A DNA stretch of 52,193 bases, from NCBI GenBank assembly GCA_016208915.1, contig JACQXE010000024.1, forward strand, positions 1-52,193, in the 5' to 3' direction. Positions within the stretch are counted from its first letter, which is position 1; every line of letters begins with the position of its first letter. This DNA is from Nitrospirota bacterium. GTDB lineage: Bacteria > Nitrospirota > Thermodesulfovibrionia > Thermodesulfovibrionales > UBA1546. This document shows, piece by piece, positions 1 to 6,997 of the stretch. Made by a program: the position numbers and the translations under genes. The notes beneath the pieces were generated by a model. The model saw nothing but the letters and a program-made list of their open reading frames with translations. It did not search any database and had not been told where the DNA came from.

Positions 1-1
1 G

Positions 2-472
2 GAGGAGACAGTAGAGGTAATCTTAAGCCATGTGCTAAAAGGCAAGGACATCGCATTCCCAACCCTCGGAGACCCTCTCCTTTACAGCACATTTTTTTAT
101 ATCCATGATAAACTTTTAAATTTATTGCCTTCACTTCAGGTGGTTATTGTCCCTGGAGTTTCCTCAATGAGTGCATCTTCAGCATCAGCAGGGATGCCTT
201 TATGTCTTGGGAGTGAAAGGTTAGCGCTTCTACCCGCCACATATGAAGAAGAGAAGCTAAAAGAAACCCTCCTTAGTTTTGATACGGTTATCTTAATGAA
301 GGTTAATAAGATATTTGACAAAATACTTGGTATTCTTGAGGAGTTGGGGCTTGTAGATTCTGCGGTAGTCGTAGAGATGGCAAGCACAGACAAGGAAAGG
401 ATTATAAAAGATCTGCGGTCAATCAAAGGTGAGAACCTACATTACTTTACAACGATGATAATAAAAAAATGA
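2..472 (+). CDS. cbiL: Precorrin-2 / cobalt-factor II C20-methyltransferase, 5' end outside the window
   Basis: SAM-dependent enzyme that methylates C20 of cobalt-factor II (precorrin-2) in the corrin pathway; cytosolic. The frame is open from base 2 and runs into a GDPLLYSTF segment, the SAM-binding motif of this family, so the true start lies upstream and the first methionine-like codon (GTG at 32) is internal. VPGVSSMSASSASAGMPL and the FDTVILMKV strand are also typical of CobI/CbiL. About 157 residues are visible of a protein usually near 230. The stop overlaps the next start (ATGA), so translation is probably coupled to cbiF. The 3' end is intact. Identity is firm; the cobalt-first form is inferred from the CbiG next door. 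Confidence 0.9.
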   Translation, partial: EETVEVILSHVLKGKDIAFPTLGDPLLYSTFFYIHDKLLNLLPSLQVVIVPGVSSMSASSASAGMPLCLGSERLALLPATYEEEKLKETLLSFDTVILMKVNKIFDKILGILEELGLVDSAVVVEMASTDKERIIKDLRSIKGENLHYFTTMIIKK

Positions 473-1224
473 GTAAAGTCTATTTCATAGGAGCAGGCCC
501 TGGAGATCCTGAGCTTATAACAATCAGGGGCAGAAAAATCATCGATGCTGCTGATGTTGTGATCTATGCAGGAAGCCTTGTCAATCCTGAACTCCTCGAA
601 GGCATAAAGGCAGAGATATTTAATTCTTCAAAAATGATTCTTGATGAGATAGTAGAGATTATGAGGAATTCAACAGACAACGGCAGAACTGTCGCCAGAC
701 TTCATACAGGGGACACATCATTTTACAGTGCCGTATCAGAACAGATAGAAAGACTTCGTGCATTAAACATAGAATATGAAGTTATTCCCGGTGTTTCATC
801 TGCAATGGCTGGCGCAGCAGTACTCGGACAGGAGCTTACCATACCAGAGATAACTCAGACAGTGATATTTACCAGAATTGAAGGAAGAACCCCTGTGCCT
901 GAAATGGAAAAGCTTAGCGAGTTAGCAAAACACAGAGCAACAATGGTGATCTTTCTGAGTGTAAGAATGATCGAAAAGGTAAGAGATGAATTGCTTCAGG
1001 GTTATCCTGAAGACACACCTGTTGTAATTATTGAAAAGGCAACATGGAAGGAACAGAAAGTTGTAAGAGGACAGTTAAAGGACATCGTAATGTTAGTTAA
1101 GGATGCAGGCATTAAAAAGACCGCATTGATCTATATCGGAGATGCGCTGAGGGCATCAGCAGAATCGCTGGGGAAGAAATCAAGGCTTTATAATAAGGGT
1201 TTTAAACATGGATACAGACAATAA
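469..1224 (+). CDS. cbiF: Cobalt-precorrin-4 C11-methyltransferase
   Basis: Methylates C11 of cobalt-precorrin-4 in anaerobic cobalamin synthesis. It is 251 residues, normal length for CbiF/CobM. The N-terminus carries the VYFIGAGPGDPELIT nucleotide-binding loop and a YAGSLV segment diagnostic of this methyltransferase; HTGDTSFYSA (about residues 80-89) and VIPGVSSAMAGAA (about 105-117) are the remaining SAM-pocket motifs. It starts inside the cbiL stop (ATGA) and its end overlaps the cbiG start by 17 bases, so the three genes form one operon. No repeat insertion is seen, unlike its downstream neighbours. Confidence 0.93.
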   Translation: MSKVYFIGAGPGDPELITIRGRKIIDAADVVIYAGSLVNPELLEGIKAEIFNSSKMILDEIVEIMRNSTDNGRTVARLHTGDTSFYSAVSEQIERLRALNIEYEVIPGVSSAMAGAAVLGQELTIPEITQTVIFTRIEGRTPVPEMEKLSELAKHRATMVIFLSVRMIEKVRDELLQGYPEDTPVVIIEKATWKEQKVVRGQLKDIVMLVKDAGIKKTALIYIGDALRASAESLGKKSRLYNKGFKHGYRQ

Positions 1225-2446
1225 AACTGCAATATTTTACATAACAGATAACGGTCTTAACCTTGCAGAAAGGCTCAAAGGGCTTTATCCTGAAGCTTAT
1301 ATCTCAAAGTTTAAACCAGAAACTATAACTGGAATTTGGGAAGAATACAGAAGAATCATTTTTATTATGGCAACAGGTATTGTCGTAAGGACTATTGCAC
1401 CACTAATAAAAGACAAAAGGATAGACCCGGCTGTTATTGTTCTTGATGAAAAAGAGGAATATGCCATAAGCCTTTTAAGCGGTCATCTTGGAGGCGCAAA
1501 TAAGATTGCACGGGAGATTGCAGGTTTTCTTGGCGGACAGGCAGTTGTTACAACAGCATCGGATGTTAACAACCTGCCCGCCATAGATCTATGGGCAAGG
1601 GAGAATGGTCTGATTATAGAGAACTGGGATATAATCCCTCAAGTCGTAACAAGGTTTTTAAACAATAATACATTAAGGATTTATTCCGAGATTGATATAA
1701 AACTGTCTAAAGAGTTTTTTATGGTAGATAATCCGCAATATGCTGATATGCTGATTACAAATAAAAAGGAGATAGGTTTAAATGTCATTCCCGTGAAAAC
1801 GGGAATCCAGAAGAAAAAGACAAAAGAACTGGATTCCTGCTTCCGCAGGAATGACGAAAAACAGACCATCTACCAATTTTATCTCCGACCTAAAAATCTG
1901 ATTGTAGGAATTGGCTGTAACAGCGGGACCTCTGCAGGTGAGATTGAAGATGCTGTGAAAAGAGTGCTGGCTGAAAAAAATTTCTCTTTCCTCTCAATTC
2001 ATAGTGTCGCAACAATTGACATCAAGGCAGATGAGAAAGGCCTTAATGAATTTGTCCGGGCATATGGATTTTCCATAAAGACATTTGCTGCTGATGAGTT
2101 GAACAGCTTAAAGGGCATTCAAAAATCAGCGTTAGTCTTTAAGACCACAGGCGCTTATGCAGTGGCAGAGCCAGCAGCATTGCTTGCATCAGGTAGTAAT
2201 AACGTGCTTGTACCAAAACAAAAGATAGGTAATGTAACAGTAGCAGTAGCGGAATTAAGATCAGAGCACAGAGCAAAGAACATGGAACAAAGACAGAAAG
2301 GTAAATTATACATCGTTGGCACCGGGCCAGGAGGCATTGCCCACATTACACCTTATGCACAAAATGCTATAAGAAAATCCGATGTGATAGTGGGATACAG
2401 TACCTATCTTGATTTGATACAGGGGCTCATTAAAGATAAAGAATGA
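1208..2446 (+). CDS. cbiG: Cobalt-precorrin-5A hydrolase CbiG, fused to the truncated start of CbiH
   Basis: CbiG opens the lactone ring of cobalt-precorrin-5A and releases acetaldehyde. Residues about 45-125 hold the N-terminal domain (MATGIVVRTIAPLI, SLLSGHLGGANKIA). The C-terminal domain begins at PKNLIVGIGCNSGTSAGEI (about residue 230) and extends to about 355. Between them, residues about 193-218 are encoded by a dispersed palindromic repeat inserted in frame (VIPVKTGIQ ... LDSCFRRND), exactly at the interdomain linker. From about residue 366 the frame continues into KLYIVGTGPG and VGYSTYLDLIQ, the N-terminus of CbiH, then stops. A CbiG-CbiH fusion is therefore the likely ancestral state. 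The CbiG part looks intact apart from the linker insert. Confidence 0.9.
   Translation: MDTDNKTAIFYITDNGLNLAERLKGLYPEAYISKFKPETITGIWEEYRRIIFIMATGIVVRTIAPLIKDKRIDPAVIVLDEKEEYAISLLSGHLGGANKIAREIAGFLGGQAVVTTASDVNNLPAIDLWARENGLIIENWDIIPQVVTRFLNNNTLRIYSEIDIKLSKEFFMVDNPQYADMLITNKKEIGLNVIPVKTGIQKKKTKELDSCFRRNDEKQTIYQFYLRPKNLIVGIGCNSGTSAGEIEDAVKRVLAEKNFSFLSIHSVATIDIKADEKGLNEFVRAYGFSIKTFAADELNSLKGIQKSALVFKTTGAYAVAEPAALLASGSNNVLVPKQKIGNVTVAVAELRSEHRAKNMEQRQKGKLYIVGTGPGGIAHITPYAQNAIRKSDVIVGYSTYLDLIQGLIKDKE
1784..1855. repeat. Palindromic GTCATTCC-type repeat inserted in frame in cbiG
   Basis: A 72-bp element running from GTCATTCCCGTGAAAACGGG to CTTCCGCAGGAATGAC, made of two small hairpins and ending in inverted GTCATTCC/GGAATGAC termini. 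Seventy-two bases is a multiple of three, so cbiG stays open across it. Related copies lie at 4993-5085 and 10382-10462, both non-coding. Confidence 0.92.
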
Positions 2447-2460
2447 GATGCTTAGAAACA

Positions 2461-2549
2461 GTAACGAGTTATTAGTAACGAGTAACAAGTTAAAGAACAA
2501 AAAGGATTCCGAAGGCTCGTCACTCGTCACTCGTTACTCGTCACTTGTT
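2461..2549. repeat. Inverted 'taacgagt / actcgtta' repeat across the cbiH break
   Basis: The left half (2461-2489) repeats units like GTAACGAGT; the right half (2516-2549) repeats their reverse complement, ACTCGTCACTCG. It is a hairpin-forming repeat that replaces the middle of cbiH. The same family recurs inside ybeY at 29327-29356. Confidence 0.85.
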
Positions 2550-2966
2550 GATGTTGAAGTCATCCCCGGCGTCTCTGCCTTGAATGCCTGTGCCGCAAGG
2601 CTTGGAGCGCCGCTAATGCATGATTTCGCATGTATAAGTCTATCAGACAGGCTAACACCATGGGGTACGATAGAAAAAAGAATTGAGACAGCATCATTGG
2701 CTGATTTTGTAATTGTTCTTTACAATCCAAAAAGTACAGGAAGAACAGAACACATTAATAGAGCAAGGGATATTATTTTAAAATACAGACATCCCGAGAC
2801 ACCCGTAGGGATAGTACGGGCTGCAATGAGAGAGGACGAGAAGATAACAATCACAAACCTTAAAAATATGCTTAACAATGATATTGATATGCAGACGACT
2901 ATTATAATAGGCAATTCTCAGACATTCATATGGAATGGATGGATGATTACCCCGAGGGGATATGAA

Positions 2967-2975
2967 AGGAGGTGA
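2967..2975 (+). promoter_or_regulatory. Full-consensus ribosome-binding site for the 53-residue peptide gene
   Basis: AGGAGGTGA is perfectly complementary to the usual 16S rRNA 3' end and lies six bases before the ATG at 2982. It overlaps the cbiH stop codon. It is the strongest site noticed in the window and supports the small gene as real and highly translated. Confidence 0.85.
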
Positions 2976-2981
2976 GAGAAT

Positions 2982-3143
2982 ATGAATAAGATGAAAACCA
3001 CTACTTCTAAGAAAAAACACAGCAACGGCGTGAAATCAAAGGCTCATGCCATTTCTTATCATTTGAAATGCGCAAAGACAGCCAACGGCTTGACCCACTT
3101 CGTGATGTATGGCGATGTTCCGAACAAGAAGATGCCGTTATAG
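2982..3143 (+). CDS. Small peptide, probable RiPP precursor (CbpA-like)
   Basis: A 53-residue, lysine- and histidine-rich peptide. It starts MNKMKTTTSKKKHSNG, has a single Cys at position 30 (SYHLKCAKTANG) and ends GDVPNKKMPL; histidines fall at 13, 22, 27 and 39. It has no signal peptide or membrane segment. A perfect ribosome-binding site precedes it and a radical SAM/SPASM enzyme gene follows, the usual arrangement for a precursor and its modifying enzyme. I recall NCBI family names 'modified peptide precursor CbpA' and 'peptide-modifying radical SAM enzyme CbpB' for such a pair near cobalamin genes, but cannot check the match. Placement after cbiH and before the cobalamin riboswitch suggests a cobalt or corrinoid role; that is inference. 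The site and type of modification are unknown. Confidence 0.75.
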   Translation: MNKMKTTTSKKKHSNGVKSKAHAISYHLKCAKTANGLTHFVMYGDVPNKKMPL

Positions 3144-3165
3144 GTGCAGGAAGCGGAGAGCGTGT

Positions 3166-3222
3166 GACTCGGAGACACGGAGAAAAAATCTACCGTGTCT
3201 TCCTTCCACTGTGTCTCCGATT
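3166..3222. repeat. Inverted repeat between the peptide gene and the radical SAM gene
   Basis: GACTCGGAGACACGGAG is answered by CTGTGTCTCCGATTC across a short centre. It is one of two palindromic repeats filling the 190-base gap. It could act as an attenuator between the abundant peptide message and the enzyme message, or be an inert dispersed repeat. Confidence 0.75.
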
Positions 3223-3243
3223 CTTCTCCTGCAGAAGAAGTTT

Positions 3244-3297
3244 GTAGCCGCAACCTTTAGGTTGCGTAATATATCGCAGGCTAAAGCCTGCGGCTAC
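3244..3297. repeat. GTAGCCGCA...GCGGCTAC palindromic repeat
   Basis: Two tandem hairpins (CGCAACCTTTAGGTTGCG and CGCAGGCTAAAGCCTGCG) lie inside outer GTAGCCG/CGGCTAC arms. This is a compact double-hairpin dispersed repeat about 20 bases before the ribosome-binding site of the radical SAM gene. Confidence 0.88.
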
Positions 3298-3333
3298 GCA
3301 AATGAAATGCAATAAAATAAGGAGAATAAAGAA

Positions 3334-4668
3334 ATGAATAACAATCGTGGTCTTTCTTTTTCTGATATCAACACTGACTGGAAGTTGGCTCTCGATGCTG
3401 ATAATGTGTTCTGGGGACTTATACCCAAAAATGGCGAAAGCGATTTCCTGCTGCCGGATGACCTGATAACACTGTACAAAGATAAAAGAAGCCATTTTGA
3501 TAAAGATCTTTATGATTTCAGATTTAAAACAGACTTAAATTGCATATACATCGACCCTACTGACAGATGTAATGCAAACTGTACCTACTGTTACATTCCT
3601 CCGAAGATGAGGAAACACGGCACCCAGATGAGCGGCAAAGAGTTAAATGCTGCGTTGAAGAAGATTGCCCAGCACTTTAAAAATGCAAAGAAAAAACCGG
3701 TGATTGTTTTTCACGCTGCTGAGCCGCTGCTGGTGAAAGATATCCTGTTTGACTGCATAAAAAAATTCAGCGCCAAATTCGTTTTCGGCATTCAGACAAA
3801 TACACTCCTTCTCGAAAAAAGAGATGTGGAGTTTATGAAAAAATACAGAGTCGGCGTAGGCATATCGCTTGACGCGCCCGATGCTCATACAAACAATCTC
3901 TCAAGGGTAACGGCAAAAAGCAGAGGCAATTTTGATAAAGCTGTTCAGGCATTAGACTGGTTTAAAGGCTATGAAGGGTTGAATGTAATCTCGACTGTCA
4001 CAAGGTTCAATGTCAAAAAGCTTTCAGAGCATGTAAGATTTCTTCATAAGAAAAGAGTGCCGTGCATACTTTTGAACCCTGTAAGGGTGACACAGAAACA
4101 GGCATTGAAACAGAAGCCGGATGAAAAGGAGTTTGCGAAAGAATTAATACGGGCAGTTGAAACGGCAATAGAGCTTACAAAGAAGTCAGGCAGGCAGATC
4201 GTTGTAGGCAACTTTGCAAATGTCATCCTCGCAATAATATCGCCTGTCGCCAGACGCATGATGTGTGACATCTCTCCTTGCGGCGGAGGAAGGACATTTC
4301 TTACAATCACTGCAAACGGCGATATGGTTCCTTGCGGAGAGTTTATCGGCTTCAAAGAATTCTCAGGAGGGAACATCTTCGAGACATCGATTTCAAAGGC
4401 AATGAACTCAGAGCCCTTCAGAAAAATAAGGGCAAGAATTGTGGAAAAAATTGACGGGTGCGATGCCTGTGATTACAGAAATATATGTGGTTCTCCATGC
4501 CCTGCAGAGTTATATGCACGAGGTAATATGTACCAGCCGGCAATATTTTGTGAGTTCTATAAGGAGATAATAAGATATGCATTTAAATTAATAGCTGAAG
4601 GCAAAGTTAAATATCTACTGAGGAAAGATTCAATGGGACAGCTTAGATATGAGTATAAATATGCGTAA
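3334..4668 (+). CDS. Radical SAM/SPASM peptide-modifying enzyme (CbpB-like)
   Basis: A 444-residue radical SAM enzyme. The CxxxCxxC cluster motif is at Cys79, Cys83 and Cys86 (DRCNANCTYCY). GISLDAP and STVTRFN follow the usual barrel order. The C-terminal third is a SPASM domain with many cysteines: MMCDISPCGGG, GDMVPCGEF, then CDACDYRNICGSPC and a last Cys near IFCEFYKEI, fit to hold auxiliary Fe-S clusters. Such enzymes install thioether, C-C or epimer changes in ribosomal peptides; the likely substrate is the 53-residue peptide upstream. AAGGAG at 3318-3323 precedes the chosen ATG. A cobalamin riboswitch follows the stop. SPASM proteins also include sulfatase-maturating (anSME) enzymes, but no sulfatase is near. 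Confidence 0.85.
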   Translation: MNNNRGLSFSDINTDWKLALDADNVFWGLIPKNGESDFLLPDDLITLYKDKRSHFDKDLYDFRFKTDLNCIYIDPTDRCNANCTYCYIPPKMRKHGTQMSGKELNAALKKIAQHFKNAKKKPVIVFHAAEPLLVKDILFDCIKKFSAKFVFGIQTNTLLLEKRDVEFMKKYRVGVGISLDAPDAHTNNLSRVTAKSRGNFDKAVQALDWFKGYEGLNVISTVTRFNVKKLSEHVRFLHKKRVPCILLNPVRVTQKQALKQKPDEKEFAKELIRAVETAIELTKKSGRQIVVGNFANVILAIISPVARRMMCDISPCGGGRTFLTITANGDMVPCGEFIGFKEFSGGNIFETSISKAMNSEPFRKIRARIVEKIDGCDACDYRNICGSPCPAELYARGNMYQPAIFCEFYKEIIRYAFKLIAEGKVKYLLRKDSMGQLRYEYKYA

Positions 4669-4671
4669 ATA

Positions 4672-4888
4672 ATGCTGCCTTTGGCAGCACAAATGAAGTA
4701 TCTGAGGGGAATCCCGTGAGAAACGGGAACTGCCCCGCAACTGTGAAGGGAACGAAAGCCATTAAAAATAGTGAATAGTGAACAGTGATTAGTGAATAGT
4801 AAAACTGACACTGAACACCGACACTGGCCACTGGTAATAACTGGGAAGGCCGGCGAGTAGGACGCCCTGAGTCAGGAGACCCTTGATA
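4672..4888 (+). promoter_or_regulatory. Cobalamin riboswitch upstream of the TonB-dependent receptor
   Basis: It shows the B12-element hallmarks in order: a GAGGGGAATCCC / GAAACGGGAA arm, ACTGCCCCGCAACTGTGA (4729-4746), GCCACTGG (4827-4834), GGGAAGGCCGGCGAGTAGGA (4843-4862) and GAGTCAGGAGACC (4870-4882). The segment between the CAACTGTGA box and GCCACTGG is unusually long and made of tandem-like repeats (see separate entry). It should switch off btuB-tonB when cobalamin is plentiful. Exact edges are approximate. Confidence 0.92.
4770..4829. repeat. Tandem-like 'agtgaata / gacactg' repeats inside the riboswitch
   Basis: Units such as GTGAATAGTGAACAGTGATT are followed by GACACTGAACACCGACACTG. 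They sit in the variable region of the riboswitch, leaving conserved boxes on both sides intact. The family looks the same as the one encoding CSLFTIHSSLL in the btuB signal peptide (opposite strand). Confidence 0.8.
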
Positions 4889-4928
4889 CCTCTCAAAACT
4901 AATACCCTTCGAGGGAAGAGGAGTTTTT
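4889..4928 (+). terminator. Possible intrinsic terminator of the riboswitch expression platform
   Basis: CCTCT (4889-4893) can pair with AGAGG (4917-4921) around an inner CCCTTCGAGGG hairpin, followed by AGTTTTT. It lies just after the last conserved riboswitch box, where a switchable terminator is expected. The stem is weak in places. Confidence 0.5.
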
Positions 4929-5154: not shown

Positions 5155-6997
5155 ATGAATAGATTTTGGCTAATGATTCTGTCCTTAACTTGTTCACTGT
5201 TTACTATTCACAGTTCCTTGTTGTGGGCAGAGAAAAAGATAAAGATTGAAGAGGTTATTGTTACTGCGGCAAAGATTGAGGAGGCTGTTGAGGAGACAAC
5301 GAGCGACGTTATCGTGGTTAGGGGTGAGGACATAAAGAAGATGAATGTTGAGTTTGTGACAGATGTCTTCAGGAAAATTCCGGAGATAAACCTTGTCCAG
5401 AATGGAGGTTCCGGAGGGAATGCAGGAGTTTTTCTCAGAGGTGCAGACACAAAGCACAGCCTTGTGATGATAGACGGAGTAAAGGTAAAAAGCACAACAA
5501 CAGGCTCATTCGATTTTTCAGGTATAAATGTAGATGACATAGAGAGGATTGAGATAGTTAAAGGCTCTCAGAGCACCCTCTATGGCTCTGAGGCAATGGC
5601 AGGCGTAATAAATATTATCACAAAGAAGGGAGAGGGCAAACCCAAGATTGATGCTTCTTTAGAAACAGGGTCATATGGAACCTATAAACCCTCTGTCAGC
5701 ATCTCAGGCGGCAGTAAGAAGCTGGAGGCTTACAGGTTCTTACTACCACACTGACGGCTTCTCAAAGGCAAAGAGCGGGGTTGAGAGGGACGGATACAGA
5801 AATGCCTCACTTTCCGGCAGATTCGGGGTTAAGCCTTCTGAGAAAACGGAGTTCGAGCTTTCAGGTAAATACTACTATGACCGCTCCGAACTCGACGGCT
5901 ATAATTATTTAAGAAGGCAGACAACGGATGACGTAAATTATGTCCAGCATGGGAACCACTACATGTTTTCGGGAAAGGGGAAATTCTATCTCGTCAAAAA
6001 CTGGGAGCAGATACTTACGTTGTCAACTGTAAAGGACGCGCTCAAAGGCAGAGACCCGGACACTTCATCCAACAACTCTGATGTGACTACAGGGATGAAC
6101 ACTGCTGACTGACAAAATAATTTCTATCTCACGGATGCGTATGTGCTGACAGCAGGCGCTGAATACAGAAACGAGAAGGGAAGGAATAAGGGGAACTTTG
6201 ACGATTCTGTTAATAACAGGGCGCTGTATCTCAATAACAAGCTTAAGCTTTTCAAGGATAGCCTTATCCTGAATACAGGGCTCAGGTACGACAACCATGA
6301 AACAGCAGGGAGCAAGACAACTTACAGGGTCGGTGCACTTTATGACATAAAGCCGGTTGACCTCAAGATTAAGGGAAGCTATGGAACAGGATTCAGGGCG
6401 CCGTCTCTCAATGATCTCTTCTATCCTTTTTATGGCAACCTGACCCTTAAACCGGAGGAAACCACAGCATGGGATATCGGACTTGAGAAGGGAATTATGA
6501 AGGACAGGGCAACGCTGTCTCTCACATATTTCGAGCAGAGGTATAAGAACCTTATACAGACGGATCCGATGACATGGCTGGCAGCCAACATAGCAAGAGC
6601 AGAAGTTAAAGGTATAGAGGCTGATGCGGTTCTAAAACTTACCTCAAATGTGAATGTGAAGGCAGGATACACTTACCTTGATGCAAAAGACAAGGACACG
6701 AATCAGAGGCTCACAAGAAGGCCTCAGGATAAATTCGGCTTTGGCGCAGATTATCTTGGAAAGGATATGTCGCTTGGTGCAAGCTACACATTCGTGAGCG
6801 AGAGATATGATTCTTCTGTGAGAAGGGACCTCACCTCTTATCATCTTGTGAATATGAGCGGAAGTTATAAACTTACAAAATGGCCCTCGATATTCGGAAG
6901 GGTTGAAAACCTCTTTGATGCAAATTACGAAGAGGCAGGAAGTTATAAAACTCCCGGGTTTTCGATATATGGGGGGATAAGGATAGCAACACTATAA
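5155..6997 (+). pseudogene. btuB: TonB-dependent outer-membrane receptor, BtuB-like, with frameshift and in-frame stop
   Basis: By position a corrinoid (B12) importer: a 22-strand outer-membrane barrel with N-terminal plug, powered by TonB. EEVIVTAAKIEEAVEETTSDVIVV is the TonB-box/plug start (quoted here as EEVIVTAAK); the plug continues through FLRGADTKHSLVMIDGVK and GSQSTLYGSEAMAGVINIIT. The frame shifts near 5700-5735, where SGGSKKLEA should run on to LTGSYYHTDGFS one frame over. A TGA at 6110-6112 interrupts ...GMNTAD before QNNFYLTDAY, where Trp (TGG) would fit. The remainder continues to a typical barrel end, RIATL. The signal peptide (LTCSLFTIHSSLLWA) is partly made of a dispersed repeat. 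It starts after AGGAGG at 5141-5146. The two lesions may be genuine decay or sequencing error. Confidence 0.85.

Follow-up and report, generated by a model that had tools for sequence, protein, structure and literature searches.

A peptide probably modified by a radical SAM enzyme and under riboswitch control in relatives: a possible factor for cobalt supply or corrinoid handling in anaerobic B12 synthesis

CbpA, a peptide of 53 residues, and CbpB, a radical SAM/SPASM enzyme, are encoded one directly after the other among cobalamin genes in a 52,193-nucleotide stretch of DNA from a Nitrospirota bacterium (hereafter the window). The pairing of the two genes, purifying selection on the peptide, riboswitch control in relatives and the context of B12 operons were observed directly. 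It is inferred, with little doubt but from gene-level evidence only, that CbpB modifies CbpA, and with good confidence that the modified peptide serves the cobalamin economy of the cell; the pair probably helps cells to obtain cobalt or B12 by a route that has not yet been described. The further proposal that the riboswitch-induced, modified peptide serves anaerobic B12 synthesis as a factor that supplies cobalt (or handles corrinoids) is put forward tentatively.

The family itself is already known, as two named and uncharacterised NCBIfam models, and no paper on CbpA or CbpB was found in the literature searched (on CbpB and radical SAM, the model names, and precursor peptides with cobalamin operons). 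What is new is a precursor subfamily overlooked by the curated model, the direct control of both subfamilies by riboswitches, 1:1 pairing of the genes, their pattern of optional insertion, and conserved hairpins in the gap between them.

The peptide, the enzyme and their genes

The features of the window that bear on the pair are as follows.

1208..2975, + strand: cbiG and cbiH, 5' of cbpA; cbiH is interrupted and its middle is missing (profile matches)
2965..2975, + strand: Shine-Dalgarno sequence AAAGGAGGTGA of cbpA, overlapping the cbiH stop codon (sequence)
2982..3143, + strand: cbpA, 53-aa precursor peptide assigned to a divergent CbpA subfamily (open reading frame, alignment, selection)
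3054..3140, + strand: conserved C-terminal segment of CbpA, S25-L53 (alignment A2; pN/pS 0.09)
3166..3223, + strand: stem-loop 1 of the cbpA-cbpB gap (inverted repeat; whole-gap folding z -8.8)
3244..3297, + strand: stem-loop 2 of the cbpA-cbpB gap (inverted repeat; whole-gap folding z -8.8)
3334..4668, + strand: cbpB, 444-aa radical SAM/SPASM enzyme (TIGR04163, 498 bits; Pfam Radical_SAM and SPASM; AlphaFold2 pLDDT 86.8)
3568..3591, + strand: CX3CX2C radical SAM cluster motif, C79, C83 and C86 (invariant in 37 CbpB sequences)
4264..4551, + strand: eight Cys of the SPASM region, C311, C316, C334, C376, C379, C385, C389 and C406 (invariant in 37 CbpB sequences; aligned with anSMEcpe)
4655..4899, + strand: cobalamin riboswitch, 3' of cbpB and 5' of btuB (RF00174, 60.2 bits)
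5155..6997, + strand: btuB-like outer-membrane cobalamin receptor in three ORF pieces (TIGR01779, 156.9 bits for the first piece; Pfam Plug and TonB-dependent beta-barrel)

Upstream of cbpA, profile matches identified pieces of CbiL (its C-terminal part), CbiF, CbiG and CbiH, and only 6 bases separate the cbiH stop from the cbpA start; downstream of cbpB follow the riboswitch, btuB and tonB. A preliminary description of this DNA had reported a peptide gene with a perfect ribosome-binding site, followed by a radical SAM/SPASM gene, and the open reading frames, the sequence AAAGGAGGTGA and Pfam bear this out. Its remark that no protease or exporter adjoins the pair also holds, as none was found among the neighbouring ORFs of the window and their Pfam matches. 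The three ORFs of btuB (5155-6997) lie in different frames, and the counterpart at locus L031 is one ORF of 663 aa; the split may reflect either decay or sequence errors.

CbpA (MNKMKTTTSKKKHSNGVKSKAHAISYHLKCAKTANGLTHFVMYGDVPNKKMPL, 53 codons) is rich in lysine, with 11 Lys or Arg residues, one Asp or Glu, four His and one Cys. For its last 29 residues (SYHLKCAKTANGLTHFVMYGDVPNKKMPL), 46 distinct DNA versions gave a mean pS of 0.81 and a mean pN of 0.07, a ratio of 0.09; this segment is under strong purifying selection, which shows cbpA to be a real gene. It had been proposed that an alignment of homologues would reveal conserved residues, and in the 29 rows of alignment A2 C30, G36, L37 and H39 are indeed invariant. 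A small ORF stands just 5' of nearly every related cbpB and ends in [SA][YF][HR][LM][KR]C-x5-GL[ST]HF-x-[MF]YGD, and archaeal, planctomycete and canonical Nitrospirota relatives share the cross-phylum core C-x5-GL-[ST/A]-H-[FY]. In the N-terminal half neither length nor sequence is constant, and only the richness in lysine is kept. The cbpA genes of relatives are also preceded by an equally strong ribosome-binding site. A search of plasmids with the peptide gave no match. Modelled alone, CbpA reached a pLDDT of 58 with no predicted fold and no usable model, as would be expected for a peptide substrate.

The window peptide matched no Pfam model at E<=0.1 and no NCBIfam model at E<=1; nor did the CbpA model, TIGR04164 (cut-off 35 bits), find a match anywhere in the source genome. 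Scores against this model are graded: peptides of the window-type subfamily reach 12.6-14.7 bits or do not match at all, archaeal peptides reach 28.5-32.3 bits, which is still below the cut-off, the planctomycete peptide scores 47.5 bits, and planctomycete and canonical peptides together range from 47 to 63 bits. Profile A2, which was built with the archaeal and planctomycete rows included, recovers canonical CbpAs at 6e-8 to 5e-12. The window peptide can be tied to TIGR04164 because the archaeal, planctomycete and canonical peptides share its core and form a series of intermediate scores, and its partner enzyme is of the same family as theirs; as judged from its sequence, it belongs to a divergent CbpA subfamily and falls outside the family as TIGR04164 itself delimits it.

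CbpB matched the NCBIfam model TIGR04163 ('peptide-modifying radical SAM enzyme CbpB') with 498 bits, above the cut-off of 375. The family names CbpA and CbpB, which had been put forward in the preliminary description, are therefore secure for the enzyme; for the peptide they are denied by TIGR04164 and supported through distant homology only. The Pfam domains PF04055 (Radical_SAM) and PF13186 (SPASM) were found in CbpB, and 11 Cys are invariant across 37 CbpB sequences, three of them in CX3CX2C and the other eight within the SPASM region. Modelled with AlphaFold2 (mean pLDDT 86.8), CbpB is closest in structure to the peptide-modifying radical SAM enzymes CteB, anSMEcpe, ChlB, TigE and SuiB. 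No PqqD/RRE leader-binding domain was matched by Pfam, and the first 65 residues were modelled as three strands and one helix; an RRE domain is not obligatory in every RiPP enzyme. In a phylogenetic tree, window-type CbpB forms a clade separate from canonical CbpB (100/100), and scores against TIGR04163 are about 490-520 bits in the window clade versus 670-707 bits in the canonical one.

The gap between cbpA and cbpB folds into strong stem-loops (z <= -3.5) at 43 of 47 loci, as against 22 of the 69 other co-directional gaps of those loci (Fisher p about 6e-11). The comparison relied on a simple ORF caller and on equally simple shuffle counts, and the difference should be taken as strong rather than exact. 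Hairpin sequences were not alike between the loci inspected. Hairpins 3' of a precursor gene are familiar in RiPP operons, and those found here are consistent with an excess of peptide over enzyme.

A second, diverged block, with the order cbiF-cbiG/H-cbpA-cbpB-riboswitch, is present in the source genome on contig C35 (locus L003), and its CbpB scores 499 bits against TIGR04163. The first 141 bases of this block are identical to the start of the window contig; after them, identity to window positions 1-4900 ranges from about 52 to 99% along the block. As the two cbpB copies fall in different clades of the CbpB tree and the identity forms a mosaic, the copies are taken to be old paralogues, or one of them to be acquired, with patchy gene conversion. 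Both cbiH copies (window 2306-2446 and 2448-2975; L003 2255-2404 and 2461-2877) are without the stretch that corresponds to residues 51-95 or so of TIGR01466, a region which carries the SGGDPG motif in intact relatives. Intact cbiH, CbiC and CbiD were not found in the source genome, the assembly of which is split at repeats; the organism may be without its own corrin-ring synthesis, or the genes may be hidden by the assembly.

Low-complexity imperfect palindromes (GTAACGAGTAACAAG...ACTCGTCACTCG) were noticed at 2457-2555 of the window and in CbiG-CbiH of L024. In relatives they stand in frame inside CbiH or CbiG, where they read NSNELQVTSNK..SSLVTRHSSL, and they resemble the Rickettsia palindromic elements. 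A similar short repeat lies within the window riboswitch, at 4767-4826.

Distribution, cobalamin context and riboswitch control

Among 246 Nitrospirota genomes, cbpB is found in 19 and cbpA in 21, including all 19 (Fisher p about 2e-26). The two cbpA genes without cbpB (genomes G132 and G054) both lie at contig ends, and at locus L114 the opening codons of a canonical cbpB come after the contig-end cbpA; the reading of these two as peptide orphans was thus rejected, and as far as the data allow a test the pairing is 1:1. Two findings had been named in advance as ones that would refute a peptide-modifying system, and neither was made: no enzyme homologue without an adjacent peptide was found (19 of 19 cbpB genomes have cbpA), and conservation of the peptide reaches well past the source genome. 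The modification of CbpA is itself unproven and the pair is patchily distributed (19/246 genomes), which leaves room for the idea that CbpB has another substrate, or that the peptide is a mere leader ORF or a hitchhiking toxin-like element; the 1:1 co-occurrence and direct adjacency, the selection on CbpA at the amino-acid level, and an invariant core without immunity or export genes make this very improbable. An antimicrobial RiPP was rejected on account of the invariant core and the lack of a conserved exporter or immunity gene. No conserved leader peptidase or exporter was seen beside cbpAB in the loci of relatives.

Cobalamin-synthesis genes stand beside the pair in 49 of the 52 classifiable bacterial loci of the window-type subfamily; the three exceptions are a short contig (L045), a locus with btuB only (L067) and a locus with a riboswitch only (L059). 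With this count and the riboswitches of relatives, the link to cobalamin drawn in the preliminary description proves far stronger than was visible from the window. At least six different gene arrangements occur among those loci; arrangements, with two canonical members, are given below.

cbiA-cbiXC-cbiMNQO-cbpAB-(cobO)-cbiD/cobF-cbiET...
Window type: cbiL-F-G-H-cbpAB-riboswitch-btuB
Omnitrophota: cobT-S-D-cbiP-cbiB-cbpAB-cbiA-cbiX
L066: cbiXC-cbpAB-cbiD
L036: cobT-cobS near cbpB
L041: cbiP-cbiB-cobD near cbpB
L115: cbiP-cbiB-cobD-cbiX-cbpAB
L090, canonical member: cobD..cbpAB..CbiZ-importer-cobO
L114, canonical member: btuB-cobU-cobT-cbiP-cbiXC-cbpAB

In most Nitrospirota the pair is directly adjoined by cbiO of the cobalt importer, and in L066, L114 and L115 cbiX or cbiXC lies directly 5' of cbpA. 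The order cbiA-XC-MNQO-(cobO)-cbiD is kept in six Nitrospirota in which the cbpAB slot is empty; since these relatives run the same operon without the pair, cbpAB is an optional add-on to a working B12 operon, and an essential pathway step was rejected. Replacement of the CbiJ reductase was also rejected, because CbiJ is absent from most cbiD-bearing Nitrospirota, with or without cbpB. In archaea (L061, L062) and Planctomycetota (L064, L065) the pairs are not beside cobalamin genes, and no Rfam cobalamin riboswitch was found at these loci. At L061 the gene downstream of cbpAB resembles mtd of C1 metabolism, on a reading of the sequence only.

Two further observations concern the operons of relatives. 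A CobF-family enzyme occupies the cbiD position of an otherwise anaerobic operon in L012 (7853-8611; TIGR02434, 297 bits) and also in L014, L015, L020, L034 and L068, where it was identified by phmmer. CobF is known from the aerobic pathway, and its place here suggests a non-orthologous replacement, as far as sequence similarity can indicate. A protein of about 420-490 aa is encoded just 5' of cbpA in three lineages (L024 4108-5577, L031 4112-5398, L051 4396-5649); the L031 copy has a weak match to the N-domain of biotin-protein ligase.

At the stand-alone canonical pairs L089, L091 and L113, a riboswitch, an intrinsic terminator, a ribosome-binding site and cbpA follow one another with no gene between; the same order is seen at L059 of the window-type subfamily, where the sequence contains a stretch of N and its tail is repeated. 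Riboswitches also lead the operons that contain cbpAB in L012, L015, L020, L025, L033, L053 and L066. Transcription-terminating cobalamin riboswitches switch genes off when B12 is plentiful. As such a riboswitch stands directly before cbpA at four stand-alone loci of both subfamilies, it is inferred that the pair is repressed by B12 and made under B12 shortage. The notion that canonical CbpB is unlinked to B12 at L089 and L091 was rejected, the riboswitches there being directly 5' of cbpA. The window contig begins inside cbiL and its sole riboswitch lies 3' of cbpB; the placement of cbpAB between cobalamin genes and a riboswitch, as first described, is correct, but control of the window's own pair is not shown by it, and it is the relatives that show such control.

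Riboswitches of this kind are also known to control B12-independent isozymes, and the stand-alone loci directly behind them would fit a B12-independent backup. CbpA could accordingly be processed, in the manner of PQQ or mycofactocin, to a small redox or radical cofactor for an enzyme of the B12 pathway or for a B12-independent system that stands in for a reaction otherwise dependent on B12, and an invariant core with a variable remainder is typical of such cofactors. This seems unlikely, as the pair has no conserved neighbour that could be a partner oxidoreductase or peptidase, no core step can depend on it when six relatives run the operon without it, and the absence of CbiJ is not specific to carriers.

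Proposed role of the modified peptide

The preliminary description had suggested that the peptide handles cobalt or corrinoids, or signals their level; this remains an inference, and there is no biochemical evidence for any of the three. In the scheme proposed here, CbpB would bind the disordered precursor CbpA, cleave SAM with its radical SAM cluster, and make one or a few radical-dependent changes in the Cys30-x5-Gly-Leu-Thr-His39-Phe segment, of which a cross-link involving Cys30 and/or His39-Phe40 would be the likeliest. Since no exporter, signal peptide or protease was found for CbpA, the product is presumed to remain intracellular. The pair would be expressed when cobalamin is scarce, with cobalamin riboswitches repressing the carrier operons, and the product would aid B12 acquisition: most likely it would hold the cobalt brought in by CbiMNQO and hand it on towards the early chelatase CbiX, in parallel to CobW in the late-insertion pathway.

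Cobalt is favoured as the ligand for three reasons: genes of the cobalt importer and the chelatase recur beside the pair more often than any others, a helper at low cobalt would be optional, like cbpAB, and such a role is filled in the late-insertion route by CobW, from which the late chelatase receives Co(II) when cobalt is limiting (PMC7689651). Even so, that cobalt is bound by modified CbpA is no more than a reasonable conjecture from the gene neighbourhood, without metal-binding data; cobalt delivery is inferred to be the single likeliest role of the product, while falling short of an even chance, and the whole cobalt-supply explanation is held with corresponding reserve. Several facts stand against it. 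Genomes G132 and G211 are carriers with neither CbiC nor CbiD, the locus of G211 (L090) is one of corrinoid salvage (CbiZ, ABC importer, CobO), the source genome appears without CbiC, CbiD and an intact CbiH (although its repeat-split assembly may hide genes), and the archaeal and planctomycete pairs are outside cobalamin loci. A chaperone with one Cys and one His would also be poor in ligands, unless further ones arise through the modification or through dimerisation.

As some carriers are without CbiC and CbiD, corrinoid handling and a peptide-derived cofactor both remain possible. The modified peptide might bind cobalamin or cobinamide inside the cell and serve the uptake, retention or delivery of scavenged B12, and not cobalt insertion. 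G132 and G211 would suit such a function, as would the btuB gene that follows cbpAB and the riboswitch in the window and in relatives of the same arrangement, the CbiZ, ABC importer and cobO genes that adjoin L090, and btuB and cobU in the same run at L114; the invariant His could serve as a lower axial ligand. Most loci, however, adjoin a cobalt importer or chelatase and not corrinoid transport, and a core of about 29 residues leaves little room for a pocket that would take a corrinoid, so that corrinoid binding is considered improbable, though not to be dismissed. A regulator or signal of cobalt or corrinoid status would agree with the B12-dependent expression and the very high conservation of the peptide; it is doubted considerably more, since the neighbourhood shows no conserved gene for a receptor, sensor kinase, transcription factor, exporter or protease, and B12 is already sensed by the riboswitch.

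RiPP enzymes have been studied mostly for antibiotics. Here a near-invariant peptide has been kept in the B12 operons of groups ranging from Nitrospirota to Omnitrophota, and several lineages have it on its own after a B12 riboswitch, a pattern that points instead to a housekeeping role of a modified peptide in metal or vitamin supply. No dedicated cobalt-delivery factor is known to us for the early (anaerobic) B12 route, and CbpA is a concrete and testable candidate. If the cobalt-supply proposal is true, the product would be the first peptide natural product with a dedicated function in the metabolism of vitamin B12, and it would give early cobalt insertion the CobW counterpart that has been missing. 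The CbpA family is in addition extended by a large subfamily that escapes the current curated model.

Comparison with known systems

The closest known systems are those defined by TIGR04163 (rSAM_cobopep CbpB), the cut-off of which is passed by the window enzyme, and TIGR04164 (cobo_pep CbpA). They have in common with the window pair a small Lys-rich peptide directly 5' of the enzyme gene, the C-x5-GL-[ST/A]-H-[FY] core and the link to cobalamin. The canonical CbpA core reads GLSHYILMDKK and that of the window CbpA GLTHFVMYGDVPNKKMPL; canonical CbpA is detected by TIGR04164, whereas the window peptide is invisible to it.

PapB and CteB, the thioether-forming enzymes of ranthipeptides and SCIFF, are like CbpB SPASM radical SAM enzymes, and they act on a small Cys-containing peptide, as CbpB is inferred to do. 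PapB (NF047865) is the best NCBIfam match of CbpB in another family, at 134.3 bits and far below the cut-off of 340, and CteB gives its best matches among solved structures. Unlike these enzymes, CbpB has no PqqD/RRE domain and all eight of its auxiliary Cys positions are occupied; unlike their substrates, CbpA has one conserved Cys and a variable N-terminus. The pattern of eight auxiliary Cys is similar in anSMEcpe, which has the same fold as CbpB (target-normalised TM up to 0.83). CbpB reaches 109.7 bits against the anSME family, below its cut-off of 349, and anSME acts on a sulfatase, whereas CbpB has a presumed dedicated peptide substrate and a B12 context. Thioether chemistry was not adopted as the default for CbpB, as the eight auxiliary Cys are filled as in anSME and no site is open; since that mechanism needs an open cluster site, it is weakened but not excluded. 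The assignment of the cluster ligands is our assumption, resting on the alignment and on the anSME and CteB literature.

CobW is a functional analogue only. It provides an accessory supply of cobalt to a chelatase when cobalt is limiting, as proposed for CbpA; CobW is a GTPase of the late-insertion pathway, whereas CbpA is an unrelated short peptide encoded beside early-insertion genes.
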